46,685 bases of DNA. It comes from a virus. Shown here piece by piece: positions 10,454-44,183 of the stretch (position 1 is the first letter of the stretch; each line of letters begins with the position of its first letter). Under the pieces are notes generated by a model. That model was not told where the DNA came from. It saw nothing but the letters and a program-made list of their open reading frames with translations, and ran no database searches. Both the position numbers and the translations under genes were made by a program. Location: IMG/VR virus record IMGVR_UViG_3300030106_007250, positions 32,984 through 79,668 of that record, one strand, 5' to 3'.

Positions 10454-11490
10454 AAAAAGTAATTATCACAGGCGTTACGGGACAAGACGGTAGTCATATG
10501 ACAGACTACTTAATTAACAATACAGAACACACAGTCATTGGGGGAGCGCGTAGGCTTAGTGTTAAAAATCACGACAACATAGAACACATTTTGGGCAACC
10601 CAAGATTTTTCTTAATTGATTTAGATGTTACTGATGCTGAAAACATTGATAGGGTCATCTCTGAACATAAGCCCGACTATTTTATAAATTTTGCAGCGAA
10701 TTCATTTGTGGGAACAAGCTGGAAGATGCCAGTTAATCATATGCAAACAAACTGTATGGCCGTGCTCCACCAACTAGAAGCGATACGCAAGCATGTTCCA
10801 CATTGCAGATACTACAACGCAGGTAGCTCTGAAGAGTTTGGGGATGTAGTTACAGCACCTCAATCAGAAGAACATCCTTTGCGCCCCAGAAGCCCATATG
10901 GAGCGGCTAAATGTGCGGCTAGACACCTAGTAAAAGTATATAGAGATTCTTACAATTTGTATGCGGTTCAGGGGTGGCTTTTTAACCACGAAGGAACAAG
11001 AAGGGGTGCTGAGTTTGTCACAAGAAAAATTACCCAAAACGTAGCGCGTATTGCCAATGAGTTTGCCCACAAAGAAAATTTTGAACCCTTAAAATTAGGG
11101 AATGTAGATTCTAAAAGAGATTGGAGTGACTCAGAAGATTTTGTTAATGGAATTTGGCTAATGTTAAATCAAGATAGAGACAGCGTAGACGATTATGTTC
11201 TATCTTCTGATGAAACACATACAATTAGAGAGTTCGTTGAAGAAGCTTTTAATTTTGCTGGGTTTCACAGATCAATGTGCAGATGGGAGGGAGAGGGTGA
11301 TGCCACTAAATATTATCACGGAAACGATCTTCTAATGGAGGTTGACCCTCAGTTTTATCGCCCAGCAGAAGTGGATTTACTTTTAGGAGATTCGACAAGA
11401 GCGAGAAGGGAGCTTGGCTGGAAACCCAAAACAACTTTTATTCAGTTAGTCGATAAAATGGTTAAACATGACATGGAGCTATTGACTTAA
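10450..11490 (+). CDS. gmd: GDP-mannose 4,6-dehydratase
   Basis: A protein of 346 residues from the ATG at 10450 in an ATGA overlap, a typical Gmd length. It has the NADP motif GVTGQDGSH at residues 8-16, FINFAANSFVGTSW, the catalytic GSSEEFG with Ser/Glu, and SPYGAAKCAARH carrying the YxxxK pair. FNHEGTRRG matches the conserved FNHESPRRG of this enzyme. Known reaction: GDP-D-mannose to GDP-4-keto-6-deoxymannose, precursor of fucose, rhamnose, colitose and perosamine. It is the last gene of the glycan operon and ends just before the promoter of the replication operon. Confidence 0.93.
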   Translation: MKKVIITGVTGQDGSHMTDYLINNTEHTVIGGARRLSVKNHDNIEHILGNPRFFLIDLDVTDAENIDRVISEHKPDYFINFAANSFVGTSWKMPVNHMQTNCMAVLHQLEAIRKHVPHCRYYNAGSSEEFGDVVTAPQSEEHPLRPRSPYGAAKCAARHLVKVYRDSYNLYAVQGWLFNHEGTRRGAEFVTRKITQNVARIANEFAHKENFEPLKLGNVDSKRDWSDSEDFVNGIWLMLNQDRDSVDDYVLSSDETHTIREFVEEAFNFAGFHRSMCRWEGEGDATKYYHGNDLLMEVDPQFYRPAEVDLLLGDSTRARRELGWKPKTTFIQLVDKMVKHDMELLT

Positions 11491-11509
11491 CTCCACATGC
11501 AGTTATACT
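11482..11509 (+). promoter_or_regulatory. Sigma70-type promoter of the replication operon, apparently leaderless
   Basis: TTGACT (11482-11487), a 16-base spacer and TATACT (11504-11509). The -35 box lies inside the 3' end of the dehydratase gene. Only 6 bases separate the -10 box from the ATG at 11516, so the predicted first transcribed base is at or within a base or two of the start codon. The other well-formed promoters in front of genes here have the same geometry. Confidence 0.75.
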
Positions 11510-11515
11510 GACTGT

Positions 11516-11959
11516 ATGCCAAGAGGTAAAAAGTCATGTCCATCCTGTAATGCTCTACTCGGAGCACGGGTTAAAGTTTGTGATTGTGGTCATGAGTTTT
11601 TGCCAAAAGCAAAAAAACAAGCAAAGCCCTTTTTTAAAGAAAGAAAGGAATTTTTAAAACGTATGCTTGGCGGCTCAAAGCCTACAAATTACGTTTTTGA
11701 AATGTCTACTGTGACAAAGATTTTTGCACAGTTTGAAAACGACCTAGATTTTCTAAGCAAGGTTAAAGCTCCCTTTGAATTAAAAGGCACTATTAAATAT
11801 TTTTTAACCAAAGATGGAAAGGAATATTTAAGCAAAAAATACAAGGAATTCAACTACAAGCCCCCAGAGAAAGATAAATTTGTTGACACGGGCGTAAAAG
11901 TTGGAGAAGATACTGTAAAGAAAAAGACTAGAACACTAAGAGATTTTTTAAATGACTAA
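11516..11959 (+). CDS. Zinc-ribbon protein of unknown function
   Basis: A protein of 147 residues. The N terminus holds a short zinc ribbon (CPSC near residues 8-11, CDCGH near residues 23-27) followed by a lysine-rich linker. The remaining 110 residues are charged, contain VTKIFAQFENDLDFL and end FLND, and match no family I know. It is the first gene of the replication operon, directly ahead of the recombinase, whose start overlaps its stop by 8 bases. A role as a small DNA- or transcription-binding factor is plausible but not shown. The promoter geometry implies a leaderless start. Confidence 0.7.
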   Translation: MPRGKKSCPSCNALLGARVKVCDCGHEFLPKAKKQAKPFFKERKEFLKRMLGGSKPTNYVFEMSTVTKIFAQFENDLDFLSKVKAPFELKGTIKYFLTKDGKEYLSKKYKEFNYKPPEKDKFVDTGVKVGEDTVKKKTRTLRDFLND

Positions 11960-16303: not shown

Positions 16304-17330
16304 AAATAAACCGCTTTCAGCATCACGAATAAAGACACTCCAAATGTGCTCTTGGCAGTATTGGTGTAAATATCACCTTAAACTTCCTGATAAGTCTAAC
16401 GAAGGCAGTTTACGCGGAACCATTTGTCATGCTGTTTTCGAAAATCTAGGAAACCCAAAACACAAAAAACACTATACTCGCATAATTAAAACTCAAAACG
16501 CTTTCGCCTCACCTCCTGTAAAAAGGATGATAGAGGCATATGCTAAAAAGCATAATATAGACGATTTTGAGAATATGGATTTGATAAATCAAATGACCGT
16601 AGAGGGTCTTAACTATGACTTCTTTGGAGACAAAGAGGGGAAACCAACCAAATCTATAAGCGAAAAAGATTTTGATATATCTGTAAACGAAGAAGGGAAA
16701 AATTATCGTATACTTGGGTTTATTGATAAACTTTTTTTATTCAAAAGAAAAAAAACTGCTCTCATAAGAGACTTTAAAACGTCTAAGCAAATCTTTTCTG
16801 GTAAAGAGTATACTGATAACATGCAAAACTTAATGTATTGCTTAGCAGTTAAACACTTATATCCAGAATTTCTTAAGAGAAAAATGGAGTTCTTGTTTGT
16901 CAAGTTCGACTGCAATAACGATGGATGTTGTGAAATGGAACCACTACCCGATGACGAGTTAGAGGGTTTTGAATATTTCTTAACAGAAGTTCAGCAGATT
17001 ATTAATAATTTTAATGAAGTTTCAGCATCTAAAAATTTAGCTTACGATAAAGGCTATCTAGGTAGAGATGATGGGTTTGCTGGTAGGGTAGTTTGTGGCA
17101 GAGCAGAATATGCAGGGCAACTGAAGAAAGATGGAACTCCAATGTGGCATTGTCCTTTTAAGTTCCCTAGAGAGTTCTATGCTTTAGTGGACAAAGATGG
17201 CACTAGAGTCGCATCAGCGGATTTCAAAAAAGACCTAAAAGACAAGCAAAGCAAGGGTTTGAAAATAGAAAAAGTCAAATATGAAGGATGTCCTGCTTTT
17301 TCATTTGACAAGCCAATGGAACTTCTGTAA
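16290..17330 (+). CDS. RecB/Cas4-like PD-(D/E)xK exonuclease
   Basis: A protein of 346 residues. SASRIKTLQMCSWQYW opens the fold; RGTICHAVFE supplies the GxxxH motif, GFIDKLF the catalytic aspartate, LIRDFKTSK the D-x-K motif and MQNLMYCLAV the QxxxY motif. All catalytic positions of the RecB/Cas4 nuclease class are present in order. Cysteines are scattered, but no clear four-cysteine iron-sulphur cluster pattern is seen. There are no Cas1 or Cas2 genes or CRISPR repeats nearby, so this is a replication or recombination nuclease rather than a CRISPR component. Confidence 0.83.
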   Translation: MEASENKPLSASRIKTLQMCSWQYWCKYHLKLPDKSNEGSLRGTICHAVFENLGNPKHKKHYTRIIKTQNAFASPPVKRMIEAYAKKHNIDDFENMDLINQMTVEGLNYDFFGDKEGKPTKSISEKDFDISVNEEGKNYRILGFIDKLFLFKRKKTALIRDFKTSKQIFSGKEYTDNMQNLMYCLAVKHLYPEFLKRKMEFLFVKFDCNNDGCCEMEPLPDDELEGFEYFLTEVQQIINNFNEVSASKNLAYDKGYLGRDDGFAGRVVCGRAEYAGQLKKDGTPMWHCPFKFPREFYALVDKDGTRVASADFKKDLKDKQSKGLKIEKVKYEGCPAFSFDKPMELL

Positions 17331-17339
17331 AGTGCAGGA

Positions 17340-18038
17340 GTGATTCCTTTATTTAAAAGCACGTTTAGCATAGGTCGATCCTTACTCAGAGTAGAGGATC
17401 TTATTGACATTGCTCAAAGCGGAGATGTCAAGAAGATGATATTAGTAGAAGACAACTTCTACGGATTTAGGGTTGTTAATAAAGCGTTCCTCCACGCTGA
17501 AATCCCTATGGTTTATGGAGTAAAAGTTCCCGTTGTTCAGTCAAGCATTACTGAAAAGACAAGTAAATTAATTTTTTTCCCCAAAAACAACAAAGGAGTG
17601 CATGTTGTTAGAAAACTTTATACCAAATGTTTTACCAGTGTGGGGGAGTGCCTAAATTTATCAGATCTAGGAGAAGGAGAACTTGATGATGTAAGCATTG
17701 GAGTTCCATTCTACGATTCATATGTATTCAACAACATCTTCCATTTTGGAATGTGCGATCTATTTTTAGACAAGTATGATCATTTTTACATAGAAGAATC
17801 TAATAACCACCCATTTGATTTTCAGATAAGTGCAGCACTCAAGAAACTAAAAGTCAAAACAGAAAAGTGCAAAAGCATATATTACAGAAATAAGGATGAC
17901 TTTGAAGCATTCCAAATGTATAAAGCTGTCTGCAACAGAAAGCAGGGAAGAGTGCCTACTTTCAGCAATCCTCGTCTTAATGACTTTGCCTCCAATGAAT
18001 TTTGCTACGAATCATATTTAGAAAATGTTGCCAAGTAA
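17340..18038 (+). CDS. Stand-alone PHP-like N-terminal domain of DNA polymerase III alpha, degenerate
   Basis: A protein of 232 residues with a GTG start at 17340. The segment FKSTFSIGRSLLRVEDLIDI aligns with the HxHxxYSxxDG start of DnaE, and AEIPMVYGVKVPVV aligns with the GIKPIIGVE strand. The metal-binding histidines are gone (KST replaces HxH). Its last 45 residues (KDDFEAFQMYKAV onwards) match the DnaE stretch that leads into the polymerase core. The exonuclease and polymerase core follow in overlapping genes, so this is very probably a structural alpha-subunit piece encoded separately. The assignment rests on alignment by eye. Confidence 0.66.
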   Translation: MIPLFKSTFSIGRSLLRVEDLIDIAQSGDVKKMILVEDNFYGFRVVNKAFLHAEIPMVYGVKVPVVQSSITEKTSKLIFFPKNNKGVHVVRKLYTKCFTSVGECLNLSDLGEGELDDVSIGVPFYDSYVFNNIFHFGMCDLFLDKYDHFYIEESNNHPFDFQISAALKKLKVKTEKCKSIYYRNKDDFEAFQMYKAVCNRKQGRVPTFSNPRLNDFASNEFCYESYLENVAK

Positions 18039-18639
18039 TCAAAAATATTTAGTATTCGATACTGAAACAGAAGGTTTAAATTTATTCTCTTCTAAAACAT
18101 GGCAGCTATCTTGGATAGTCTGTCAGGGAAACAAGACATTAGAAACTCATGACGAGTTTATAATTCACAAAGAATTAAATATCCCTGAAGTAGTCAAGAA
18201 GATCACGGGGTTTAATTGGGATACTTATAACAGAAAAGCTAAACCTTTAGACGAGGTTTGGAGCAAGTTCGAAAAGTATATATTTGACCCTCAATACATT
18301 GTAGTGGGACAAAACCTTTTAGGCTTCGATGTTTACATGCTTGCTGTATTACAAAGGCTGTTGGGTCAAGAGCCAGATTATTCTTACTTGCCTCGTATTT
18401 TAGACACAAGAGCTTTAGGCAAAGCTTACAGAGAAGAGTTAGAAAGACCCAAGGGTAACTTGCTGAGTTGGCAATATAAGATAATTAACGACAGAAGACT
18501 CAAGGCAAAGGTTTCTCAAAACCAACTTCTAAAGTTTTTCGACATAGATTTTGATGAGAGTAAATTACACAATGCTCTTTATGATATTAAGATGTGTTAC
18601 CAAATCTTTCTGAAACTCAAGAAATACATGGACCTGTAA
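18025..18639 (+). CDS. DnaQ-like DEDDh 3'-5' proofreading exonuclease
   Basis: A protein of 204 residues. YLVFDTETEGL gives the first Asp-Glu pair near residues 12-14, VVGQNLLGFDVYML the second aspartate, and LHNALYDIKMCY the terminal His-x5-Asp. This is a complete DEDDh set, so the enzyme should be active. It stands between the PHP-like piece (14-base overlap) and the polymerase core (TAATG), the position expected for a proofreading subunit. The gene order PHP, exonuclease, polymerase matches the domain order of PolC, although the polymerase motifs look DnaE-like. Confidence 0.87.
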   Translation: MLPSNQKYLVFDTETEGLNLFSSKTWQLSWIVCQGNKTLETHDEFIIHKELNIPEVVKKITGFNWDTYNRKAKPLDEVWSKFEKYIFDPQYIVVGQNLLGFDVYMLAVLQRLLGQEPDYSYLPRILDTRALGKAYREELERPKGNLLSWQYKIINDRRLKAKVSQNQLLKFFDIDFDESKLHNALYDIKMCYQIFLKLKKYMDL

Positions 18640-21197
18640 TGTTTGAAGATTTTACACCATACGATGATTGTGAACCTGCGGGAGTTGAGCTTCCTAAAAC
18701 AATCGTTGACCCTGCTAAGCTAGAAGAAATAGGGCTTGGTCCCGATAGTTCTACAAAAGACATTCTATATGAATTAACCAGAAAAGGTTTGCGTGATAAA
18801 GGTATCACAAAATATGAAAATAAAAAAGTTTATTTTGATAGAGCAAAGCAAGAGTTAGAAACTTTTGAAGAGCTTGGTTTTACAGATTATATCTTACTTA
18901 ACTGGGATGTTTTAAATTTTTGTCATGACAACAATATTCCAACTGGTGCTGGCCGTGGTTCTGCTGCTGGCTCTCTTGTTCTATATCTGCTCGGAGTAAC
19001 AAACATTGACCCAATCCCCCACGATTTGTTTTTTGAGAGATTTGTGTCTAAATCTAGAGCAAAGAAAGTCACTGATAAAAGAGGTAAAGAGTTTCTAGTT
19101 GGAAGCCTTTTACCTGATGTAGATTCAGATATTTCTTACGAGCAAAGGTATAAAGTCATTCAATATATTGAGCGCAAGCACGAAGGAAAGACTGCTAAAA
19201 TACTAACCTTTAACACCTTTAGCGCCAAGCTGTGCATAAGAGAGGCTACGAAATACTTTGATGAAGTAAAAGAAGACCAAGCTAATCAAGTATCAGACAT
19301 GATACCTAAACTGCACGGCAATGTGTTTCCCTTAGAGCAAGCCAGAGAAGAAAGCGGTAAATTTAAAAGATGGGTAAGAGACCACAAAAGGACTTTTAAA
19401 AATGCATTAAAAATAGAGAACTTACCTAAGAATACTGGAGTTCACCCATCTGGCATAGCAATCTGTTCTGAGAAAATAGAGAACGTAGTCCCATTGCAAA
19501 AAACTAAAGATGGAGATTTAGTGACAGGTTACGACATGTCAGATGTTGCTGACCTAATGGTTAAGTTTGACATTCTTGGCTTAAGAACACTAACTATTGC
19601 TCATAAAACCTGCGAAAAAGTTGGTATAAAAATTGAAGATGTAGATCCTAATTCTCAAATTATTTACGATATATTACAGGATTTCAGACATCCTGTAGGT
19701 CTTTTTCAGATATCGGCTGAAACAAACTTTAAGGTATGTAGGCAGATCAAGCCAGATGACTTAAATGAACTTTCTGACGTTGTAGCCCTAGCTCGACCAG
19801 CAGCACTTGAGTTTGTTGACACATATAGAGATAATAAAAACAACTCATTAGTGCAGGAAATACATCCTGAGCTAGACAAGATACTTTCTTGGTCAAAAAA
19901 TGTTATCCTGTATCAAGAGCAATTGATGCAGATAGCTCACAAAGTTTTCGGCCTCACTCTTGAAGAAGCGGAGGTGTTAAGGAGAATTGTTGGCAAGAAA
20001 AAAGTTGATGAAATGCCTAAGTGGAAAGATAGGATTTATGAAGCCGCTCGTTCTAGAGAACTGACTGATCAGATAGCTGACTTTTATTGGAATTCATTGA
20101 TAGCCGCTTCCCATTATTCTTTTAACAAATCTCACAGCTTTGCTTATGCAGATTTAGCCGCTAAAACAGTTTTTCTAAAACATAACTATCCTAAAGAATT
20201 CTTTCTTTCTGTTCTTGAGTGCGCCGAGTTTGACCCAGAACCATTAACTACTATATCTGGGGTTAATGAAGAGTTAGAGGATTTTGGAATTAAGATGCTT
20301 CCTCCTTGCTTATTTAAATCAGATTTTGATTTTAAGATAGAAGGGCAAGACATTAGATACGGATTAAATAGTATTAAAGGAATCTCTCTTAAAGCAATGG
20401 AGAGTCTTGTAGAGTTCAGAGGGATAGAGTTTTCAAACAAATATGAGGTATTTCTAGCTGCCAGACAGTGCGGTATCAACATCTCTGTGCTTGCGGCTTT
20501 AATCCAAGCTGGAACGATGGACCATGCGGGAACTAATAGAACCCGCATGGTCCTAGAGGCACAAGCATTCAACCTTCTTACAGACAGAGAAAAAAGAAAC
20601 TTTTGCAAGATAGGGGAAAGGTTTGGATATGATATACTTGATGCAATATCAGAGGTTATAGGCAAGGAAATTTTAGGAGATGACAACAAGCCTATCATGT
20701 CTGAAAAGAGATTTAAAACATTTAAAAGTAAGTTTGATCAGTATAAAAAAATATATTCTCAAAACAGAAAGCATGAGATGTTTGCCAAGTGGAGATATGA
20801 AAGCTCGCTACTTGGCTATAGTTATTCGCATGATTTAAGAGAGTGTTTTAAAGAGAGATATCCCAACCTCCAAGACCTAAAAGTTGTTTCAGAGTTACCT
20901 GAAAGAGAAAAATTTCAAGTTGCGGGAGAGGTAAAAGATTTTTTTACAAGAACCTCTCAAAACGGTAATAAGTATATGATAATATCTCTTGCGGATAATA
21001 CAGCTACTAAGAACTTCCTATTCATGGATACAAGCAGAGGTAATAAACTAACAGATTTTCTACAGTATAATAAATTGAAAAAAACCCAAGTTATTATTGT
21101 AAATGGCTCTAAAAGTAGAGATAGCTTCTTTGTCGAAACAATCAAACCTATTGATACCGACATTTACATGAAACTGAGGGAGGTTAAAAGTGATTAA
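18639..21197 (+). CDS. dnaE: DNA polymerase III alpha subunit, catalytic core (no PHP domain)
   Basis: A protein of 852 residues from the ATG at 18639, fused to the upstream stop; the in-frame ATG 45 bases earlier lies inside the exonuclease gene. Palm motifs are present: GAGRGSAAGS near residues 103-112, PDVDSD near 159-164 (catalytic aspartates) and VKFDILGLRTLT near 310. Finger motifs YQEQLMQIA, LRRIVGKKK and NKSHSFAYA follow. A C-terminal OB domain begins at FQVAGEVKDF. The PHP domain and the tau-binding end are absent, hence a length well below the 1,160 of E. coli DnaE. It is the main replicase. Confidence 0.93.
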   Translation: MFEDFTPYDDCEPAGVELPKTIVDPAKLEEIGLGPDSSTKDILYELTRKGLRDKGITKYENKKVYFDRAKQELETFEELGFTDYILLNWDVLNFCHDNNIPTGAGRGSAAGSLVLYLLGVTNIDPIPHDLFFERFVSKSRAKKVTDKRGKEFLVGSLLPDVDSDISYEQRYKVIQYIERKHEGKTAKILTFNTFSAKLCIREATKYFDEVKEDQANQVSDMIPKLHGNVFPLEQAREESGKFKRWVRDHKRTFKNALKIENLPKNTGVHPSGIAICSEKIENVVPLQKTKDGDLVTGYDMSDVADLMVKFDILGLRTLTIAHKTCEKVGIKIEDVDPNSQIIYDILQDFRHPVGLFQISAETNFKVCRQIKPDDLNELSDVVALARPAALEFVDTYRDNKNNSLVQEIHPELDKILSWSKNVILYQEQLMQIAHKVFGLTLEEAEVLRRIVGKKKVDEMPKWKDRIYEAARSRELTDQIADFYWNSLIAASHYSFNKSHSFAYADLAAKTVFLKHNYPKEFFLSVLECAEFDPEPLTTISGVNEELEDFGIKMLPPCLFKSDFDFKIEGQDIRYGLNSIKGISLKAMESLVEFRGIEFSNKYEVFLAARQCGINISVLAALIQAGTMDHAGTNRTRMVLEAQAFNLLTDREKRNFCKIGERFGYDILDAISEVIGKEILGDDNKPIMSEKRFKTFKSKFDQYKKIYSQNRKHEMFAKWRYESSLLGYSYSHDLRECFKERYPNLQDLKVVSELPEREKFQVAGEVKDFFTRTSQNGNKYMIISLADNTATKNFLFMDTSRGNKLTDFLQYNKLKKTQVIIVNGSKSRDSFFVETIKPIDTDIYMKLREVKSD

Positions 21198-23690: not shown

Positions 23691-23696
23691 TAAATT

Positions 23697-24144: not shown

Positions 24145-24155
24145 AAACACTAAAA

Positions 24156-25886: not shown

Positions 25887-25896
25887 ATGCTTTTAA

Positions 25897-25901
25897 GTGT
25901 A
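25897..25901 (+). promoter_or_regulatory. GTGTA motif 15 bases before a start codon
   Basis: GTGTA stands 15 bases before the ATG at 25912, in the only gap between the lipoprotein gene and the next ORF. TAGATT within it could be a -10 box 6 bases before the start codon. No -35 box is visible. Confidence 0.42.
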
Positions 25902-25911
25902 GATTGTAGTA

Positions 25912-26204: not shown

Positions 26205-26232
26205 TTGATTTTTAATATTATTATTTTATAAT
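26205..26232 (+). promoter_or_regulatory. Sigma70-type promoter, leaderless geometry
   Basis: TTGATT (26205-26210), a 16-base spacer and TATAAT (26227-26232), continuing as TATAATACT. Seven bases separate the -10 box from the ATG at 26240, so the message should begin at the start codon. Confidence 0.75.
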
Positions 26233-26239
26233 ACTGCAT

Positions 26240-26474: not shown

Positions 26475-26503
26475 TTGACTATTACAATTCTGTAATATAT
26501 ATT
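26475..26503 (+). promoter_or_regulatory. Sigma70-type promoter of the outer-membrane protein gene
   Basis: TTGACT (26475-26480), a 17-base spacer and TATATT (26498-26503). Six bases separate it from the ATG at 26510, again leaderless. Together with the terminator at 27208-27237 it defines a single-gene transcription unit. Confidence 0.72.
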
Positions 26504-26509
26504 CAATTT

Positions 26510-27207: not shown

Positions 27208-27237
27208 AAAAAGCCACCTGCACGGGTGGCTTTTTTT
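27208..27237 (+). terminator. Intrinsic terminator after the outer-membrane protein gene
   Basis: AAGCCACC (27211-27218) pairs with GGTGGCTT (27225-27232) across a 6-base loop; flanking A and T runs extend the stem, and seven T's end at 27237. The A-rich left side means it could also work on the other strand. It is the clearest factor-independent terminator in the window. Confidence 0.9.
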
Positions 27238-27242
27238 GTGTA
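27238..27242 (+). promoter_or_regulatory. GTGTA motif 17 bases before the holin start
   Basis: GTGTA begins immediately after the T-run of the terminator and 17 bases before the ATG at 27255. Since the terminator blocks read-through, the lysis genes need a promoter here. No TTGACA-like -35 is present, so this is a good single place to test the motif as a promoter. Confidence 0.5.
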
Positions 27243-27254
27243 GTAATTAATTAC

Positions 27255-28814: not shown

Positions 28815-28830
28815 TATAATCTGGTATATT
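28815..28830 (+). promoter_or_regulatory. Probable promoter with an extended -10
   Basis: TGGTATATT (28822-28830) is an extended -10 element whose TATATT (28825-28830) ends 7 bases before the ATG at 28838, the leaderless spacing seen elsewhere. A TATAAT also lies at 28815-28820. No convincing -35 box precedes either. Confidence 0.5.
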
Positions 28831-28837
28831 AGCTCTA

Positions 28838-30695: not shown

Positions 30696-30721
30696 AATTA
30701 ATTCCCTTCAAAATTTCGATG

Positions 30722-30748
30722 GTGTAATATAGATTATAATCATATAAT
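30722..30748 (+). promoter_or_regulatory. Probable promoter region with GTGTA and two TATAAT boxes
   Basis: GTGTA (30722-30726) is followed by TATAAT at 30735-30740 and again at 30743-30748. The second box ends 5 bases before the ATG at 30754, matching the leaderless spacing. No good -35 box is seen. Confidence 0.5.
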
Positions 30749-30753
30749 TTATT

Positions 30754-30942: not shown

Positions 30943-30951
30943 TTTTATTCC

Positions 30952-30979
30952 TTGAATAATCCTTATAACAGGCTATAAT
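30952..30979 (+). promoter_or_regulatory. Sigma70-type promoter of the heptose genes, leaderless geometry
   Basis: TTGAAT (30952-30957), a 16-base spacer and TATAAT (30974-30979) continuing as TATAATACT. Seven bases separate it from the ATG at 30987. It would drive the coupled run from the cupin to the HAD phosphatase. Confidence 0.75.
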
Positions 30980-30986
30980 ACTCTAG

Positions 30987-33361: not shown

Positions 33362-33362
33362 A

Positions 33363-33704
33363 ATGAAAACATATATCGTAGATATTGATGGCACTATTTG
33401 CCGACATGAAGATCAGAGCGCACCTTACGATCAAGGCAAGCCTATAAAAGAAAGAATTGAGTTTTTTAATAAACTCTATGATGCTGGTCATACCATTATC
33501 TACTGGACAGCAAGGGGAGGCTGGTCTGGGAAAGATTATTCTGAGCTTACTAAAAAGCAGTTAGATGAATGGGGTGTTAAAAGAACAGAGTTAAGGATGG
33601 GCAAACCTCCTTATGATTACTGGATTGATGACAGGGCTTATAATGTAAATGATTTTTTTATGGTAGATACGAGGACAGGTGAAACAGAATCAATGACTTT
33701 ATGA
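33363..33704 (+). CDS. HAD-superfamily phosphatase (EcbF/BcbF-like)
   Basis: A 113-residue protein. Motif I is YIVDIDGTICRH (nucleophile Asp8, acid Asp10), motif II is IIYWTARGG, and motif IV is DYWIDDRAYNVNDF. The compact size and the closing IDDRA match capsule-biosynthesis phosphatases of the EcbF/BcbF type. In the heptose cluster it could replace GmhB, the phosphatase that removes the 7-phosphate between the two HldE steps, but it lacks GmhB-type sequence, so that is a suggestion only. Confidence 0.78.
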   Translation: MKTYIVDIDGTICRHEDQSAPYDQGKPIKERIEFFNKLYDAGHTIIYWTARGGWSGKDYSELTKKQLDEWGVKRTELRMGKPPYDYWIDDRAYNVNDFFMVDTRTGETESMTL

Positions 33705-34234
33705 TATCAGACAAAGCTAAAAATATGTCATCTGCTGGGCATATTAAAAAATCAATAAATACTGGCCATGAAGGTCAACAAAGATTCTACGACTCTTGTA
33801 GAGCAGCAGGTAAAGAAATTAAGAAAACAAGTCAGCATGATGATATAAAAAATCATACGGACTTCGTAGTGGATGGTGTGGGATTTGACGTTAAGGGCTT
33901 AAAACAGACCCAAAAAGAGGGTAAAGTCGTCTTAGAAATAAAAAACGTGCAAGGTGAAATGGGGTGGTGTAATGGGGAGCAAAAACCAGCGTGGATCGCT
34001 TTCGACTATGGTGCTTTCTTTCTATGTGCCAAAAATGACGATTTATTTGATTTGGCTAATACTTGTGATTGGACTGATAAAGTTACCAATTTTAAAGATT
34101 CTTTGTATAAAGGATATACAAGAAAAGGTAGGGAAGACTTAATGACCACTGTTTATTTATATGATATATTAAACACTTGTGAACATTGGTTCTTACCATA
34201 TGAAGAATACCGTTCCCCTATGGAACTTTTATAG
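33701..34234 (+). CDS. Putative nuclease-like protein of unknown function
   Basis: A 177-residue protein whose start overlaps the HAD gene by 4 bases. The central DGVGFDVKGLKQ followed by VVLEIKNVQGEMGW gives a D-x-K and E-x-K arrangement like restriction-endonuclease-type folds. The rest (WIAFDYGAFFLCAKND, then HWFLPYEEYRSP) is unassigned. The fold is suggested only by motif spacing. It closes the heptose transcript; the next gene begins 14 bases later with a GTGTA motif. Confidence 0.5.
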   Translation: MISDKAKNMSSAGHIKKSINTGHEGQQRFYDSCRAAGKEIKKTSQHDDIKNHTDFVVDGVGFDVKGLKQTQKEGKVVLEIKNVQGEMGWCNGEQKPAWIAFDYGAFFLCAKNDDLFDLANTCDWTDKVTNFKDSLYKGYTRKGREDLMTTVYLYDILNTCEHWFLPYEEYRSPMELL

Positions 34235-34238
34235 TGTA
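34234..34238 (+). promoter_or_regulatory. GTGTA motif 14 bases before a start codon
   Basis: GTGTA overlaps the last base of the upstream stop codon and stands 14 bases before the ATG at 34248. There is no -35 box and no ribosome-binding site. Confidence 0.45.
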
Positions 34239-34247
34239 AACAAAAAT

Positions 34248-35528
34248 ATGCCATTGCCGACTCCCAGAAACAATGAAAAGCGCAGTGATTTTATAGGTCG
34301 CTGCGTCTCAGACTTAACCGATAAAAAAGAATTTAAAGATAACAAACAGCGGGTGGCTGTTTGTATGAACATTTTCGAAGATGCTGAATCAAAAGCTTCT
34401 GTAGTATTTGATGATGGGGAAGATACCACTCTTTTTTTTAGTGAGGCAGCTAACGAAAATAAAACTCTTAATAAACCCTTTAGAACCCCCAAAGGTCCGA
34501 AAAAGTTCTCTGTTTATGTAAAAAACGAAAAAGGAAACGTGGTTAAGGTAAACTTCGGTGACCCCAATATGGAAATTAAGAGGGACGACCCAAAAAGAAG
34601 GAAGGCTTTTAGAAGTCGTCACAATTGCGATAACGCTGGTCCTAAATGGAAGGCTAGATACTGGTCTTGTAAAATGTGGAGCAAGAAGAGCGTTACAAAT
34701 ATGACAAAAGGCTCTGAAGATTATGAGTGGGATGGTGAGACCTTTTTTAACCATGAAGATTTGCTTAGAGAATGTCCCGCTTTAGCTGAAGTTTCTGAAG
34801 CTGCAAAAAGGAGGGGACCAAAGAGTGGAGCACAAACCCCCGCAGAACCAAGCGAAAGAAAAAAGGGTTCTAAAAGAAACCCAAAAGGAAGCGCAAAAAA
34901 GGGTGGTGGCAAAATTACATTCAGTGAAAAAACTACAAATACTTTAAAAGAAAAGGTAAAAGCTCACAATGCCAAGTATTCTAAAAAGGTTACTTTAGGC
35001 CAACTCAAAAGAGTTTATAGGCGCGGTGCTGGTGCTTTTAGCACATCTCACCGTCCAAATATGTCTCGTCATGGTTGGGCTATGGCAAGGGTAAACACAT
35101 TCCTCAAGATGATGAGGGGAGGAAAGGTAAAAGAATCATATAGAAAAGCAGACCAAGATATAGCGAAAGCTGCTTACGGGGATAAAAAGAAAAAGTCTTA
35201 TGGATCTCCTGATGCGAATGATCATTACTTCGACAGCAAAGAGAAAGCTATGAAAGATGCTGAAAAGATGGGTTTGAAAGGAGTTCATACTCATAAAACC
35301 GAGGATGGCAAGACTCTTTACATGGCTGGACCCAACCATGAAGCTTTTATGAAGCGCCACAAAGAGATTCTAAAAGAAAAAGAGAAATCTGATAGCAGTC
35401 TCTGGGAGAACATCAGAAAGAAGAGGGAAAGAATCAAGAGGGGTTCTGGGGAAAAAATGAGAAAGAAAGGTGAAAAGGGCGCTCCTACTGAAGAGCAGGT
35501 AAGAAAAGCTAAGGGAAAAGGTGGATGA
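34248..35528 (+). CDS. Multi-domain phage protein of unknown function, lysine-rich
   Basis: A protein of 426 residues. I chose the ATG at 34248 (MPLPTPRNNEKRSDFIGRC), the usual opening of this phage family, over one at 34179 inside the previous gene. At least three modules are visible: the opening FIGRC/QRVAVC segment; KKFSVYVKNEKGN to WKARYWSCKMW near residues 85-145; and KRVYRRGAGAFSTSHRP with HGWAMARVNTFL near residues 255-290. A charged tail carries a YFDSKEKAMKDAEKMGLKG repeat-like part. These modules occur singly in phage proteins near structural genes. A virion or prohead role is likely but unproven. Confidence 0.7.
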   Translation: MPLPTPRNNEKRSDFIGRCVSDLTDKKEFKDNKQRVAVCMNIFEDAESKASVVFDDGEDTTLFFSEAANENKTLNKPFRTPKGPKKFSVYVKNEKGNVVKVNFGDPNMEIKRDDPKRRKAFRSRHNCDNAGPKWKARYWSCKMWSKKSVTNMTKGSEDYEWDGETFFNHEDLLRECPALAEVSEAAKRRGPKSGAQTPAEPSERKKGSKRNPKGSAKKGGGKITFSEKTTNTLKEKVKAHNAKYSKKVTLGQLKRVYRRGAGAFSTSHRPNMSRHGWAMARVNTFLKMMRGGKVKESYRKADQDIAKAAYGDKKKKSYGSPDANDHYFDSKEKAMKDAEKMGLKGVHTHKTEDGKTLYMAGPNHEAFMKRHKEILKEKEKSDSSLWENIRKKRERIKRGSGEKMRKKGEKGAPTEEQVRKAKGKGG

Positions 35529-35569
35529 GGATAAAACAATCTGCGGTCTGCGGATATTAAAAATTAATT

Positions 35570-35734
35570 TTAATTAGTAAAGCGCGAAACAAAATACGCC
35601 ATACTAATTAACAAAACCAATAAAATTAAAGGTGTTATTGGTGGTTGGTTTGATCTACGCCAATCTCTAGCCTCACGTTTTGTGTGAGGTCTTTCGGTAA
35701 CCCTGCTTGTAGGGTAATCTTCTTCTATTGTCAT
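35570..35734 (-). CDS. Small single-pass membrane protein on the minus strand
   Basis: A 54-residue ORF running leftwards from the ATG at 35734 to the TAA at 35570. The N-terminal 33 residues are polar and arginine-rich (TKREARDWRRSNQPP), followed by one convincing hydrophobic segment (PLILLVLLISMAYFVSRF). This positive-inside layout is typical of a type II-like small membrane protein. No other gene occupies the space. It is the only leftward gene in the central region, which may mean a separate expression time. Confidence 0.55.
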   Translation of the reverse strand: MTIEEDYPTSRVTERPHTKREARDWRRSNQPPITPLILLVLLISMAYFVSRFTN

Positions 35735-35821
35735 TCACTAATCCTATACAGGTGTAATAAAATATAGGCAGGAATAGTTTTGTTTCAGTTTTGTCACTCA
35801 AACCTAGCAAGTCACAAATAT

Positions 35822-35850
35822 TTGAAATAAGTGTAAGTATTTTATATTAT
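35822..35850 (+). promoter_or_regulatory. Promoter of the fibre operon, leaderless geometry
   Basis: TTGAAA (35822-35827), a 17-base spacer and TATTAT (35845-35850), ending 7 bases before the GTG at 35858. A GTGTA motif (35831-35835) lies within the spacer, so both motif classes coincide here. Confidence 0.62.
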
Positions 35851-35857
35851 TATTAAA

Positions 35858-36190
35858 GTGAAAACCATCGTTAAAAAGGTAGTAAGACTGGAAACAAAGC
35901 GACATGACTTTGATAATGATTTTGCATATATTGAAGTTTGGCGTAATAGCACGTTGAAAGACTGTTATTTCGCTGAAAAACAATATCTATGGCCTGATGG
36001 TTCTCTAAAAAAAGAAGGCACAAAATACTTCCATTCGCCTCTTCATGGTGGAGATATAGAGAAAGAGATCAAACCGTTAAATTATTCAAAATTTCAGTGG
36101 TTTGACCGTTTATTTTATCTTGATGAGGATGGCAATGTCCAACAAATTGATTCTGGTGGATCTTCCTCATCCAATGGAGAGGGAGATTAA
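35858..36190 (+). CDS. Small protein preceding the giant fibre, unknown function
   Basis: A 110-residue protein with a GTG start (MKTIVKKVVRLETKRHDF). It has a beta-rich middle with aromatic residues (YLWPDGSLKKEGTKYF, FQWFDRLFYLDEDGN) and a serine/glycine-rich acidic end. Its stop is fused to the ATG of the fibre gene (TAATG), so the two are co-translated. A small tail or fibre-attachment protein is a plausible guess from position; no family is recognised. Confidence 0.65.
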   Translation: MKTIVKKVVRLETKRHDFDNDFAYIEVWRNSTLKDCYFAEKQYLWPDGSLKKEGTKYFHSPLHGGDIEKEIKPLNYSKFQWFDRLFYLDEDGNVQQIDSGGSSSSNGEGD

Positions 36191-39100
36191 TGGCAACTAA
36201 CCAATTTCCAGAACCAGAAGAAGATGCTGAAGAAAATGAGTTCACCCCTCACGATCTTCGGCATTACAACTTAGATGACCCCACTTCTGATAGTCATGTC
36301 ACAATAGATCAGACAAGACCATTTGCTCCAAATATAAGGCACAATGTTGACGAAAATAATGATATTATAGGCTATGAGTGCCTATTTAATCAAGCTTATA
36401 TATTTAATACAGTTTCTGAAAATCAATGGCAGGGTGATGGCACTCCTATTCAGGGGATGAATTACATCCATGATTTAGAGATTGGTGAGCATAAAAAATA
36501 TTATGTTGAAGTTATCTTAGATGCTGAAAACTTCTTAATAAGTGGAGCTACTTTCACTGGATATCATGCGGATGGAGATCAACCAACTAGCAGTTTCCCA
36601 GAGATTATATTTGAGCAATTACAAGATGCTGATGTAGAAAAGACTGTCTTTACTGGGTATCTCCCTGTTTTAGAGTTAAATGATGGATACATTGAAAAAC
36701 TAAATTTAGCTGACAATATAATTCTTTCAGATAGGCAACATAAACAGCTAGGGATATCAAGTGGCTGTAACAGCGCCCACATTCTCGTAAGTGGAGAGAA
36801 GGATAATGAGTTTTTCCCAGTTAGACATAGAGCAATATCAGGTGGCTCAGGAGTTACCGTTGAAGAAACAGACAAATATATAATCATCCATGCTTCAGGT
36901 TCTGGTGCCTCAGGTGATTGGTCTGGAGAAAACGTAGGGTATCAAGGTGTTGGGGTATATAACGAATACACTCTGATGCCATCAGAGTTCCATAAAATTT
37001 ATGGGGATGAAGCTGACAGCAACATACATGTTGATATGATAGCTCATGCTCAAGGGGACTACATTAAAGTATCAGCAGAATATGATAACTGTAGCAACAC
37101 TTTAGCAGATGCGGATCACTGGGCTTACAAAGAAACTGCTGGTGGAGAAGCGCGTTTTAGAGGATTAAAAACTGGTGACGGTATCAAGTTTACTAAGGAT
37201 GTAGATCACGAAACTAATTATTGCACCTCAACAATTTCCGCTAGAATCGAAAGTTGCGGGAGTGCTAATTGGGAGGCTTTTAAAGGATTTGAAGCGGGTA
37301 GGGCTAAGTTTAGGGGATTTAATCAGGGATGTGGAATAACCTTCGCTGATGATGATGGTTGTGTTGCAACTATAAAAACACAGTTAAAGAATTGTGATGA
37401 CCCTTCTGATTCTTACCTACCATATAAAGGTTGCGCTGATGGTTTCGAACAGTTTCATCCTCTTTCCGTAGGCAGTGATGATGAATTAAACTTAACAATT
37501 ACTGCTAACGGAAGCTGCGGTTACACAATCGCGGGGAGTTGTTGCACTTCCTCTGACGATTACTATATATCTGATTATTTAATCCATACTAGTGACACAA
37601 ACACTAAGATGGGTTTCCCAGCGGATGATACAATAGATTTTTATACTGCGGGTTCTGCAAGAATGACCATCAAGTCAGATGGTAAGATAGGAATTGGTTC
37701 TGCTGTCCCAAGTCACACTCTCACAGTGGATGGCTCCATAGGAGGAAGCTCTTTTGGTATATCTGATGGCAAAGCTGTATTAATTGATGGTAGCCCAAGT
37801 GATGACCAGTATGCTCGCTTTACTGCTAACGGTCTTGAAGGACGTTCTGCAAGTGATGTTCGTAGCGATCTTTCTTTAGGATCGCTTGCTACCCTTAGTG
37901 CGGTCGATGCTGATAGCGTCACCGTTTCAAACTTGGAGGTCGATAACCTTAAAGCCTCCACACTCGTAACGGAGTCCGAGGGTATCGGATCTAACGACAA
38001 CGATACGACGATCCCGACTTCGGCGGCTGTTAAAGATTACGTTGATAACAACGATGGAAATGTTTATGTATCGAGCGCAGCGTTCGGAACCTCTGACGGA
38101 GTTCTTACGCTGACTCGCACCGACTCTGCAACGGTAACCGTCGATCTCGACGGGAGATACCAAGACGAGATTACGTCTTCCAGTCGATTGAACGCGAACC
38201 TTGTCGGAGATGGTAGCATATCAAATACAGAGTTCGACTACCTCGACGGCGTATCGTCGAATATCCAAAACCAGTTGGATGCTAAGCAAGCGACAATAAG
38301 TTCCTCTAGTCGTTTGAGTGCGACATTAGTTGGAGCGAACGGAAACGTATCAAATACGGAGTTCGGTTATCTTGACGGCGTTACCAGCGCGATCCAGACG
38401 CAAATAGACGGCAAGCAAGCTTCTCTTACGTTCGGTATTGCAAGCGGCAATACCGTCAAGATGGCATCCTCTGCGAGTGATGATGAATTTGCTCGCTTTA
38501 CCTCAACGGGTCTTGAAGGACGTTCTGCAAGCGATGTCCGTAGCGATCTTTCCTTAGGATCACTCGCTACTCTTAGTGCGGTCGATGCCGATAGCGTCAC
38601 CGTTTCAAACTTGGAGGTCGATAACCTTAAAGCCTCGACACTCGTAACGGAGTCTGAGGGCATCGGGTCTAACGATAACGATACGACGATCCCGACTTCG
38701 GCGGCTGTTAAAGATTACGTTGATAGTAACGATGGAAATGTTTATGTATCGAGCGCAGCGTTCGGAACCTCTGACGGAGTTCTTACGCTGACTCGCACCG
38801 ACTCTGCGACAGTAACCGTCGATCTCGACGGGAGATACCAAGACGAGATTACGTCCTCCAGCCGATTGAACGCGAACCTTATTGGTTCCTCTGGAAACGT
38901 ATCAAATACGGAGTTCGATTACCTTGACGGCGTAACCAGTGCGATCCAGACGCAGTTGGACGCGAAACTTTCTACATCTGGTGGAACACTTGGTGGCAAC
39001 CTTGTAATGGGGGCCAATCAATTAAAGTTTGCTGACGATGGGGATATTTTCATGGGAGATAGCAATGATTTTCATCTCTACCATAATGGGAGTCATAGTT

Positions 39101-42100: not shown

Positions 42101-43461
42101 CGGGTAATAGAGCTACAGCTAGGTTTGGTATTTGGGATACAGATAGTAGCCGACACCAGAGTGTAACTTTTTATGCAGCACATAAATATGGCAACGCATC
42201 AGCCGACACAATTACTGTTTTAGATACTTCCCACTTCGGCACTAGTCCTTTCCGTTACATAAGAATTAAAGCGGGTGGAACTTATGATGGTGCTGCCCTT
42301 CAAGTATATATTGATAACGCTCAGAATGCGCTAAATGCAGCTATCCTTGGAGATAACTTTCAATCTGATAGTTGGGTTCTTTGCGATTTTATTCCAGATG
42401 CTGATACCCCACCACTCGTAAGTAATTACGGCTCTTTTACTGAAAGTTCTAGGATTGATTTAGATGAGATTGCACAAGGTGGTTTTGCAACCACTGGACC
42501 CATCTATGCTGACGGAAACACAAGCCAATACAAAGTCCTTACTACTAATGACTTCGGCATCTCTGATGGAAATGCGGTAAAATGTGGAGGCTCTGTTGCT
42601 GACAATGATTTCCTCAGAATTGACGGCACTGAAGTAGAGGGTAGAACGGCTTCACAAGTTAAAGATGATCTAGGTCTTGGCTCTAGTGATGATGCTTCAT
42701 TCGGGTCTTTGACTATTGATAGTCTTACCCATATTGACACTGATGGGACTTACGGAGCTTCTTATGGAGCGATTGGTATCGGAACCTCAAACCTAACAAA
42801 CGGTCATCATAGAATATTCGCTAAGTCTTCTGACCATATGTATTTTGCTGCCGCTAGCAGTAAAGGGTTTAGGTTTAGGCCAAATGGAGGTTCTACAACT
42901 GCTTCCGCTGGCATCAGCATTAACTCATCAGGTTATCTGGGGATCGGGACCACTAATGCTTCTAATTACATTGATGTAAATGGAGGTATTGCTATTGGCG
43001 CAAGTTATGTAGGAGCATCAGCCCCAAGTAATGGCGCAATTATAGAAGGTAATTTAGGAGTGGGATATAGTAGTCCTTCCTATAAGCTTCACGTTAATGG
43101 CTCTATTGTTGGTTCTTACAAATCCTTCTTGATTGATCACCCAACAAAAGAAGGCAAACAATTAATGCATTCTTGCCTTGAGGGGCCAGAACATGGAGTT
43201 TATTTAAGAGGTCAAAGTGATTTAAATATAATTAAAATGCCAGATTACTGGAAAGGTTTAGTTCACATAGACACAATGAGTGTGACTCTCACAGCAATCG
43301 GGCCTAATCAAAACATTTATGTTGATTCTATAGCGGAAAATGGCGATGTAGCCGTGGGTTCAAATACAGAAGAACCGCTTAATTACTTTTATGTTGTTCA
43401 CGCAGAGCGTAAAGACATAGATAAGCTTGAAATAGAGATACCCAATTCAGAATTCGGTTGA
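36190..43461 (+). CDS. Giant tail-fibre-like structural protein
   Basis: A protein of 2,423 residues. The first 500 residues are unique and beta-rich, with repeated cysteine-containing segments. From about residue 490 it is built from modules: several VGIGxxxPxxxLxV repeats, nine copies of an EFDYLDGVTSAIQTQLDAK-type unit, and three long repeats containing TTIPTSAAVKDYV, a block common in marine phage fibres. The C terminus (FLIDHPTKEGKQLMHSCLEG, then PDYWKGLV) matches the conserved end of many phage fibres. Known role of such proteins: trimeric host-receptor-binding fibres. No autoproteolytic S74 motif was seen. Confidence 0.85.
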   Translation: MATNQFPEPEEDAEENEFTPHDLRHYNLDDPTSDSHVTIDQTRPFAPNIRHNVDENNDIIGYECLFNQAYIFNTVSENQWQGDGTPIQGMNYIHDLEIGEHKKYYVEVILDAENFLISGATFTGYHADGDQPTSSFPEIIFEQLQDADVEKTVFTGYLPVLELNDGYIEKLNLADNIILSDRQHKQLGISSGCNSAHILVSGEKDNEFFPVRHRAISGGSGVTVEETDKYIIIHASGSGASGDWSGENVGYQGVGVYNEYTLMPSEFHKIYGDEADSNIHVDMIAHAQGDYIKVSAEYDNCSNTLADADHWAYKETAGGEARFRGLKTGDGIKFTKDVDHETNYCTSTISARIESCGSANWEAFKGFEAGRAKFRGFNQGCGITFADDDGCVATIKTQLKNCDDPSDSYLPYKGCADGFEQFHPLSVGSDDELNLTITANGSCGYTIAGSCCTSSDDYYISDYLIHTSDTNTKMGFPADDTIDFYTAGSARMTIKSDGKIGIGSAVPSHTLTVDGSIGGSSFGISDGKAVLIDGSPSDDQYARFTANGLEGRSASDVRSDLSLGSLATLSAVDADSVTVSNLEVDNLKASTLVTESEGIGSNDNDTTIPTSAAVKDYVDNNDGNVYVSSAAFGTSDGVLTLTRTDSATVTVDLDGRYQDEITSSSRLNANLVGDGSISNTEFDYLDGVSSNIQNQLDAKQATISSSSRLSATLVGANGNVSNTEFGYLDGVTSAIQTQIDGKQASLTFGIASGNTVKMASSASDDEFARFTSTGLEGRSASDVRSDLSLGSLATLSAVDADSVTVSNLEVDNLKASTLVTESEGIGSNDNDTTIPTSAAVKDYVDSNDGNVYVSSAAFGTSDGVLTLTRTDSATVTVDLDGRYQDEITSSSRLNANLIGSSGNVSNTEFDYLDGVTSAIQTQLDAKLSTSGGTLGGNLVMGANQLKFADDGDIFMGDSNDFHLYHNGSHSYVIDNGEGGLYLQTNGPAIYLQDTDGNALAQFTDGGANFLMYDGSTKLETTSVGAKITGLLNVDTVNNNANSANIIYRQGTSTIVGNNADALVVLDAGKVGIGSTSPDFKLEVIADDTSGVMSVRNASNARDTFRSENAAGTRTVNIGNDSNGHGLVLVRDNAGTITNYIAGNGDSYFNAGDVGIGTTSNNAGIGLQLQNGAFYVYDGDIKADNINAGYFASSRNLELQGGSAAGVKLMSGSTVVLQTTSSAVGIGETAPSETLEVAGNILAKDSGVLAGVNGAKDGFIFHDLATGGGDYWGYKGFTSSSRLSIVTDGVERLTVDANGRVGIANTAPSSYTLTVDGSIGGTAFGISDGKGVLVDGSPSDDQYARFTANGIEGRSASDVRSDLSLGSLATLSAVDADSVTVSNLEVDNFKAATIVTESEGIGSNDNDTTIPTSAAVKDYVDSNDGNVYVSSAAFGTSDGVLTLTRTDSATVTVDLDGRYQDEITSSSRLNANLIGSSGSVSNAEFDYLDGVTSAIQTQLDAKLSTSGGTLSGNLSIDGDLTLQGGHNLEVNNSDILLTDNQGAALEVKEGSNLYLRFVTTNGSEEIQINQDTNIAGNLTLGGGNTVDGRDISADGTKLDALDDELQNLSSAEIDYLEALYATGVTSAEFDYLDGVSSNIQTQLDAKQATISASSRLNANLVGDGSISNTEFDYLDGVSSNIQNQLNAKQASLTFGISDGNVVKCGGSVADNDFLRIDGTEVEGLTAGEVKTALSLNNVENTAISTFSGSSNITTIGSVSSGEWNATAIADSYISSASTWNGYSTSKQDTITSGNRLNPNLIGSGNVSLAEFDYLDGVTSAIQTQLDAKQATISSSSRLSATLIGDNGNVSNTEFGYINGVTSAIQTQLDGKQATIGDGDLTIARTSGLQTALDAKQATIDSSSRLSATLVGANGNVSNTEYGYLNGVTSAIQTQLNDRYTKGDIQTFIDNSYISSESASDLAVGWYTIATNTGNRATARFGIWDTDSSRHQSVTFYAAHKYGNASADTITVLDTSHFGTSPFRYIRIKAGGTYDGAALQVYIDNAQNALNAAILGDNFQSDSWVLCDFIPDADTPPLVSNYGSFTESSRIDLDEIAQGGFATTGPIYADGNTSQYKVLTTNDFGISDGNAVKCGGSVADNDFLRIDGTEVEGRTASQVKDDLGLGSSDDASFGSLTIDSLTHIDTDGTYGASYGAIGIGTSNLTNGHHRIFAKSSDHMYFAAASSKGFRFRPNGGSTTASAGISINSSGYLGIGTTNASNYIDVNGGIAIGASYVGASAPSNGAIIEGNLGVGYSSPSYKLHVNGSIVGSYKSFLIDHPTKEGKQLMHSCLEGPEHGVYLRGQSDLNIIKMPDYWKGLVHIDTMSVTLTAIGPNQNIYVDSIAENGDVAVGSNTEEPLNYFYVVHAERKDIDKLEIEIPNSEFG
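37831..38202 (+). repeat. Fibre repeat copy 1 (372 bases, in frame)
   Basis: First of three near-identical 372-base units (124 codons) within the fibre gene, starting at GGTCTTGAAGGACGTTC and ending at GCGAACCTT. Differences from the other copies are mostly at third codon positions. Codons such as GCG, TCG, GAC and CGC are much commoner here than in the AT-rich genes around. Confidence 0.88.
38509..38880 (+). repeat. Fibre repeat copy 2 (372 bases, in frame)
   Basis: Second copy, the same length and phase as copy 1 and separated from it by 306 bases of related EFDYLDG-type units. Protein-level changes are very few, for instance Asn to Ser in the DYVDNND/DYVDSND segment. Confidence 0.88.
40234..40605 (+). 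repeat. Fibre repeat copy 3 (372 bases, in frame)
   Basis: Third copy, 1,353 bases after copy 2, with unrelated glycine-rich fibre sequence between them. It keeps the same GC-rich codon choice. Small protein changes occur (IEGRSAS for LEGRSAS, FKAATIV for LKASTLV), so it is a slightly older or separately drifting copy. Confidence 0.86.
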
Positions 43462-43485
43462 TAAACAATAGGTGTAGCATATAAT
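43458..43485 (+). promoter_or_regulatory. Sigma70-type promoter, leaderless geometry
   Basis: TTGATA (43458-43463), a 16-base spacer and TATAAT (43480-43485) continuing as TATAATACT. Five bases separate it from the ATG at 43491. The -35 box overlaps the fibre stop codon. A GTGTA motif lies at 43472-43476 within the spacer. Confidence 0.76.
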
Positions 43486-43490
43486 ACTAT

Positions 43491-44183
43491 ATGCTAGATT
43501 GCGTGTTCTTAATACCCATTGATCATAGAGGAATCCAAGGAAAGTTATTTCATCAATACCTAGAGCTACAATCTTGGTGTGAAAAAAACAATTCTGCTAT
43601 TTTTACCTGCAATGGTTTATTTCTTAATTTCGCTAGAAACTTTTTAGCTACAGCGGGTAGAGGTTATGCTGATACAAGACCACCTAATGCAAAGTGGCTA
43701 TTCTGGATTGATTCCGATATTAAGTTTAGTATTGATCAAATAGAATACATGATGAATATACCAGACGATTACATGTTTGTTACTGGTTGGTATAAGTCGG
43801 ATCATGGAGATAAAGCTATGGTAGGGAATTGGGACGAGGACTTTTTTAGAAAGAACCTTCAAATGCCCTTCACCTCTGCTAAGTGGCTAGTAAAAATAGC
43901 AGAAGAAGACCCTAAAAGAATTGTTCAAGTTGATTGGTGTGGGTTTGGATTTACAAAAGTTCATAGAGAAATTTACGAACAAATGGAATACCCATATTAC
44001 CCACTCAATCACGCCCATATTACAGATTGCGACTCTCCAATCAAAAAAGGAGAGAAGTTTGATGTGCGTGACTTAAGTTTTGAAGATGTTAGTTTTTGCA
44101 GAAATTGCTTCGAAAAAACAGGAATAAAGCCTTCTGTAGTGCCTAAAATAAGAGTAGGTCACCTAAAATCATATTTAGTGTAA
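43491..44183 (+). CDS. GT-A-type glycosyltransferase-like protein
   Basis: A protein of 230 residues. NFARNFLATAGRGY is followed by AKWLFWIDSDIKFS, matching the ARNxx and LxIDSD motifs of GT2-type enzymes, with the metal-binding DSD near residue 82. VDWCGFGFTKVHREIYEQM and LSFEDVSFCRNCF give the acceptor-side acidic pair, and the C-terminal histidine is in VGHLKSYLV. It is encoded directly after the fibre gene with its own promoter, so glycosylation of the fibre or another virion protein is an attractive inference. It could also act on host surface sugar. Confidence 0.7.
   Translation: MLDCVFLIPIDHRGIQGKLFHQYLELQSWCEKNNSAIFTCNGLFLNFARNFLATAGRGYADTRPPNAKWLFWIDSDIKFSIDQIEYMMNIPDDYMFVTGWYKSDHGDKAMVGNWDEDFFRKNLQMPFTSAKWLVKIAEEDPKRIVQVDWCGFGFTKVHREIYEQMEYPYYPLNHAHITDCDSPIKKGEKFDVRDLSFEDVSFCRNCFEKTGIKPSVVPKIRVGHLKSYLV
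44178..44182 (+). promoter_or_regulatory. GTGTA motif 17 bases before a start codon
   Basis: GTGTA overlaps the last two codons (GTG TAA) of the glycosyltransferase gene and stands 17 bases before the ATG at 44195. A TAATAATACC stretch after it resembles the TATAATACT boxes of other promoters. Because it doubles as a codon pair, this instance is weaker evidence. Confidence 0.38.

Follow-up and report, generated by a model that had tools for sequence, protein, structure and literature searches.

Why would a phage place its promoters so close to its genes that the messenger RNAs should begin at the start codon itself? The question is raised by a stretch of 46,685 nucleotides (hereafter the window), which corresponds to bases 32984-79668 of a 79,668-base IMG/VR viral record, the remainder of which was also read. 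An initial annotation had pointed out six sigma70-like promoters ending 5-7 nt before ATG or GTG, together with two sites with weak -35 boxes (28825 and 30743), and all eight are present with the boxes and spacers described (Table 1). Our analysis suggests that they belong to a wider arrangement. Judging from the sequences compared, it is highly probable that a whole phage clade expresses its promoter-led genes from leaderless or near-leaderless messages, using one host-type promoter class (class A) and one class probably read by a phage sigma factor (class B), both set in register with the start codon and without Shine-Dalgarno (SD) sequences. The earlier interpretation was right in its core and is too narrow.

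The phage clade to which the record belongs is uncultured and mostly marine. Encoded in the record are a DnaE-type DNA polymerase, a DnaB-like helicase, a primase and a UvsX-like recombinase, as well as a ribonucleotide reductase, a tape measure protein, a holin-like protein and a CHAP protein; the proteins scanned did not include a phage RNA polymerase. When the window's first 25 kb were compared with phages by megablast, nothing matched. Cultured phages matched the polymerase at only ~26-31% identity and no close cultured relative turned up; a polymerase search of IMG/VR returned 76 loci with 38-97% identity. The polymerase genes (17340-21197) are split into a 232-aa ORF that matches the beginning of the polymerase family, one for an exonuclease subunit and an 867-aa DnaE-like ORF. 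Among bacterial genomes, the polymerase had matches of 49-69% identity on three contigs that look phage-like, two of them in Flavobacteriales MAGs and the third in a Bacteriovorax MAG. We dropped these contigs as host evidence, the two assignments being inconsistent and possibly due to binning errors; in the three MAG genomes, perfect class A sites were not notably enriched. The signal-peptide protein at 26510-27181, which resembles a small outer-membrane beta barrel and is conserved in 18 relatives, was tried as a host tracer and found no relative in bacterial genomes or among PDB sequences. The pelagiphage HTVC008M is likewise annotated with a porin.

Table 1. Promoter elements of the window and the predicted sigma factor gene (window coordinates unless marked as record; class A, sigma70-type; class B, GTGTAA-type).
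Feature	Position	Strand	Start codon and distance	Remarks
Class A, TTGACT-16-TATACT	11482..11515	+	6 nt before ATG 11516	Zinc-ribbon protein heading the replication operon
Possible class A, TTGACA-17-TAAAGT	17305..17339	+	6 nt before GTG 17340	
Class B, GTGTAA	24140..24155	+	10 nt before ATG 24156	RGTGTAAgacac block retained in most relatives shown
Class B, GTGTAG	25897..25911	+	before ATG 25912	
Class A, TTGATT-16-TATAAT	26205..26239	+	7 nt before ATG 26240	
Class A, TTGACT-17-TATATT	26475..26509	+	6 nt before ATG 26510	Outer-membrane-like protein
Terminator T-run (27231-27237), then class B, GTGTAG (27238-27243)	27231..27254	+	ATG 27255; 17 nt between T-run and ATG	Holin-like protein
Class A, extended -10, TGG TATATT	28823..28837	+	-10 at 28825-28830, 7 nt before ATG 28838	Weak -35
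Class B, GTGTAA	30722..30727	+	26 nt before ATG 30754	Secondary spacing class; short AT-rich leader
-10 box, TATAAT	30743..30753	+	5 nt before ATG 30754	Weak -35
Class A, TTGAAT-16-TATAAT	30952..30986	+	7 nt before ATG 30987	Cupin; retained in nearly all homologues
Class B, GTGTAA	34234..34247	+	8 nt before ATG 34248	
Class A, TTGAAA-17-TATTAT	35822..35857	+	7 nt before GTG 35858	GTGTAA at 35831-35836 within spacer; no homologue of the gene found in the comparison with relatives
Class A, TTGATA-16-TATAAT	43458..43490	+	5 nt before ATG 43491	GTGTAG at 43472 within spacer
Class B, GTGTAA	44178..44194	+	11 nt before ATG 44195	
Class B, GTGTAA (45642 to 45637)	45629..45642	-	8 nt before GTG 45628	
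Predicted sigma factor, 198 aa	record 29802-30398	-		Lies ~2.6 kb before the window begins; sequence has the pattern of regions 2 and 4 of sigma factors

Sigma70 sites (score at least 10/12, spacers of 16-18 nt) were sought upstream of every called gene. The record contains 11, compared with 1.5 in shuffled sequence, and nine of these lie at a gap of 5-8 nt from the start codon, compared with 0.16 ± 0.41 in 200 dinucleotide shuffles (maximum 2). Related IMG/VR phages (2019 genes) repeat the pattern, with 150 of 253 sites at this gap against 3.65 ± 1.35 in shuffles, so that the spacing noticed earlier stands far above chance in the record and in its relatives. The mode in relatives is exactly 6 nt (77 of the 150 sites). 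As the -10 box of a sigma70 promoter usually ends at -7, this spacing would put +1 on the A of the ATG. TTGAC has a peak of its own at the distance that corresponds, 28-33 nt before the start, and some relatives have class A sites that match the sigma70 consensus at 12/12; class A thus has the canonical layout of TTGACA and TATAAT separated by 16-18 nt. The case for it rests on position, since bare promoter-like matches hardly exceed chance (51 over positions 23000-36500, against 42.8 ± 6.1 expected). A perfect 12/12 site (TTGACA-16-TATAAT, 32552-32579) also occurs within a gene, 14 nt before ATG 32594.

No single repeated gene accounts for the peak, since 45 gene families carry class A at a gap of 5-8 nt, compared with mostly 0-3 families at single gaps off the peak. 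The largest caveat on the count is the family of window gene 17340, which supplies 31 of the 150 sites in relatives (~119 without it) and has its -35 box in conserved coding sequence; for this reason the site before GTG 17340 is doubtful and may be a coding coincidence. Relatives in which the promoter sequence has changed retain the spacing, for instance before 11516 (in many homologues, including distant ones), 26240, 28838 (where the slot is occupied by TATAAT, 6 nt before the start) and 30987. The promoter spacing of record gene 8130 is also retained, with a start that varies between GTG and ATG.

Such proximity could simply reflect compaction, in which case promoters would crowd against the ATG for want of intergenic space and produce ordinary short leaders free of any selection at the level of translation. 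The genomes are indeed compact, with a median gap of 30 nt upstream of class A genes. Nevertheless, both classes peak at the same distances whether the free space is 60-100 nt or exceeds 100 nt (where more than 60 nt lie free upstream, 21 of 44 class A sites are at a gap of 5-8 nt), which argues against crowding as the cause. Moreover, two other compact phages lack the pattern: the 50 kb analysed of T4 and of HTVC008M contain eight and two good sigma70 sites, respectively, none at a gap of 5-8 nt, and SD words precede 61% and 42% of their leading genes. We therefore regard compaction as quite improbable. In two IMG/VR samples, 14% and 19% of the non-seed sigma70 sites among the matches listed fall at this gap, compared with 59% in the clade. 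Between samples drawn at gap 6 and at gap 16, 69% and 30%, respectively, of the seeding ATGs open an ORF, again among the matches listed. These samples indicate that single leaderless genes are common in phages and that their clade-wide use is not.

The initial annotation had extended the arrangement to early and late genes alike. Its systematic character stands, but class A genes are mainly replication, nucleotide-metabolism and accessory genes, and late-type genes carry a second element that had been missed. Unbiased k-mer counting upstream of start codons gave GTGTA(A) as the top 5-mer. In relatives, GTGTAA has a sharp peak 8-10 nt before the start, with 144 sites at a gap of 8-11 nt compared with 1.9 ± 1.3 in shuffles. 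The element is found on 42 gene families, only one of which also carries class A. In every relative read, it is found ahead of the tape measure gene and of record genes 5527 and 6865, and elements of this type also precede the holin-like gene, window gene 24156 and the ribonucleotide reductase. Replication-type genes are also included, so that the label 'late' is partly a guess. The product of gene 24156 was considered, by its size, as a gp55-like sigma and rejected, as no domain was found in it.

If the ATG is +1 and the gap is 9 nt, GTGTAA has its TA at -12/-11, in the same register as that of TATAAT. The motif is short, and a -35 partner was looked for and none was found, although the predicted sigma described below retains region 4. 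A second, smaller peak at a gap of 23-28 nt implies leaders of ~15 nt on some class B genes, such as record gene 5527 and window gene 30754 (whose element, GTGTAATATA at 30722, is retained in most relatives), and thus not every message is strictly leaderless. Gene 5527 (record 5470-5527) carries two copies of GTGTAA ~10 nt apart, conserved in relatives and followed by a short AT-rich leader, possibly a dual or strong late promoter.

One may ask whether GTGTAA is a promoter at all, rather than a non-SD ribosome-binding element acting in the RNA at a fixed distance, or the operator of a repressor. The spacing of 8-11 nt resembles that of an SD sequence, and some copies are palindromic: before the tape measure gene (record 9787-9802), the element lies within the palindrome GTGTAATTTACAC, or a similar one, in several relatives, where it could form an operator or a dyad for a dimeric regulator. 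However, GTGTAA has no evident complement in the anti-SD sequence and is found mainly on genes that have room upstream (12-24% of them, depending on the spacing class), being rare on overlapping inner genes (27 of 1278), as would be expected of a promoter. In addition, it stands immediately behind terminators, at points that call for a promoter, and its distribution covers the whole clade that encodes the sigma factor. Taken as an RNA signal or operator, GTGTAA is therefore improbable. At 20 loci, a terminator hairpin with its T-run adjoins GTGTA and leaves only 14-20 nt before the ATG, several of the hairpins being unrelated. Leader length is then physically limited, whatever is assumed about promoter recognition.

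The record encodes a predicted sigma factor (Table 1). The NCBIfam sigma70-ECF model matched it with E=1.8e-6 at 27.7 bits, below the curated cut-off of 42.9, and there were profile matches to region 2 of ECF and SigA sigmas. Pfam detected no sigma domain in this protein, which therefore appears to be a divergent member of the family. The AlphaFold2 model has two confident helical domains (pLDDT 82); its top 50 PDB matches were nearly all sigma factors, as were most matches in viral libraries. Regions 2 and 4 in order and the fold place the protein in the sigma70 family, with an NCBIfam score below the cut-off. Of 20 long related records, 19 carry a single copy of the gene (a 57-kb record is the exception), and GTGTAA-N8-11-ATG occurs in 20 of 20 records (the present one and 19 of those long records), with 238 sites compared with 46 for the reversed pattern. 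A homologue in one relative (positions 1567-2149) has a frameshift, either a sequencing error or a broken gene. In many relatives, a conserved class A-type promoter, TTGATTTTT...TATA(T/G)T, precedes the sigma gene, consistent with a cascade from host sigma70 to the phage sigma and on to the GTGTAA genes.

We infer from this co-occurrence that the phage sigma probably reads GTGTAA. Host sigmas could instead read both classes, GTGTAA being recognized through an alternative host sigma or an activator, and the messages would still be leaderless. The pairing of sigma and motif is one of co-occurrence only, which leaves room for such a scheme. Yet the sigma gene is kept as a single copy in nearly all long records, and the gene sets of the two classes are almost disjoint, as expected if two forms of the polymerase act during each infection. 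On balance, recognition of both classes by host sigmas seems unlikely, and we retain the phage sigma as the probable reader of class B.

Leaderless messages should also lack ribosome-binding sites, as the initial annotation had predicted. SD words are indeed absent where the promoters lie, and the conserved spacing throughout the clade predicts messages with no leader or almost none. On the leading genes of transcription units of the clade, SD words reach 0-4%, at or below the local control, compared with ~35% in IMG/VR samples (among the matches listed) and with the higher values given above for T4 and HTVC008M. A peak of G at -8 to -11, present in T4, HTVC008M and an IMG/VR sample, is missing in the main lineage. 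At promoter-led units of the clade, the -10 element is positioned so that +1 would fall at the start codon, and the upstream sequence is free of SD. Inner genes gave a first impression of keeping SD; with proper controls, the main lineage has 9% compared with 8-9%, and only two distant groups retain some, weak SD use.

Start codons might also have been misassigned, with true starts lying further downstream, behind normal leaders with SD. Gene callers take the longest ORF, and one start in the window is wrong: the ORF at 34179-35528 likely begins at ATG 34248, which stands directly behind GTGTAA in a context shared by homologues, rather than at GTG 34179. The correction thus moved the start onto a class B site. 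More generally, mismatches against homologues are distributed over the three codon positions as 375/248/629 just after the start and 620/696/675 just before it; protein-like codon bias sets in at the assigned ATG and is not seen upstream, which supports the start codons and suggests that translation begins there. Start codons are also retained in nearly all homologues, and general misassignment is extremely improbable.

The following scheme would account for these observations. In each promoter-led unit, the first transcribed base would coincide with the start codon or lie no more than a few bases from it, and the promoter-proximal gene would be translated from a leaderless or near-leaderless mRNA without SD. 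Class A (TTGAC-N16/17-TATAAT-N6-ATG), with its canonical sigma70 match, would serve replication, nucleotide-metabolism and accessory genes together with the phage sigma gene. The phage sigma would then direct the host RNA polymerase to class B (GTGTAA-N8-11-ATG) for expression of the tape measure, holin, ribonucleotide reductase and other middle or late genes. Downstream genes of operons, which mostly overlap, may be read by coupling or by SD-independent initiation. It is tempting to go further and suggest that the whole clade has abandoned SD, with every promoter-led gene leaderless, host sigma70 acting early and a dedicated phage sigma later, and inner genes read by coupling; our judgement on this stronger statement is evenly divided.

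The ingredients of this scheme are familiar. Phage sigma factors are common, the cI mRNA of lambda is leaderless, and so are the later transcripts of the Thermus phage P23-45. Leaderless genes are established in bacteria such as mycobacteria (PMC4633059), and one phage study describes phage transcripts as often leaderless (PMC5312081). The clade shares with lambda cI and mycobacterial leaderless genes a +1 at the start codon, the lack of SD and an ATG or GTG start. There, however, leaderless expression concerns one phage gene or a fraction of the transcriptome, whereas in the clade it would be the rule for both promoter classes, and in the main lineage even inner genes have SD motifs at close to background frequency. 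Phage P23-45 shifts the host polymerase from -10/-35 to extended -10 promoters (PMC7403470). Unlike the clade, it combines extended -10 promoters with a sigma-remodelling protein, gp39, and has no GTGTAA peak; our own count found high SD use, and simple scans for sigma70 and TGnTAnnnT sites gave no peak near its starts, so that it was uninformative as a positive control. Late transcription in T4 (sigma gp55, TATAAATA) resembles the predicted scheme in that a phage sigma and a short, -10-only late promoter replace those of the host type. T4 nevertheless keeps SD-bearing leaders, whereas the clade has GTGTAA and a predicted sigma with regions 2 and 4; the element enriched in the clade is GTGTAA and not the gp55-type TATAAATA. 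Jumbo phages with their own RNA polymerases, such as AR9, also have separate early and late promoter motifs, but differ by that polymerase; the leaders of AR9 measure 26-491 nt (PMC5312081). In the open-licence literature, we came across neither GTGTAA late promoters nor a clade in which two promoter classes in start-codon register go together with loss of SD. Leaderless genes and phage sigmas are already known; the clade-wide combination is, within that literature, new.

Leaderless translation in bacteria has usually been studied gene by gene or as a minority of a transcriptome. The clade offers a natural system for ribosome starts on leaderless messages, for what makes a host permissive to them, and for the speed or selectivity that a phage may gain. 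The fixed spacing yields start codons and promoters directly from sequence, which improves the annotation of an uncultured group, and leads to a predicted recognition site for a family of phage sigma factors as yet unstudied.
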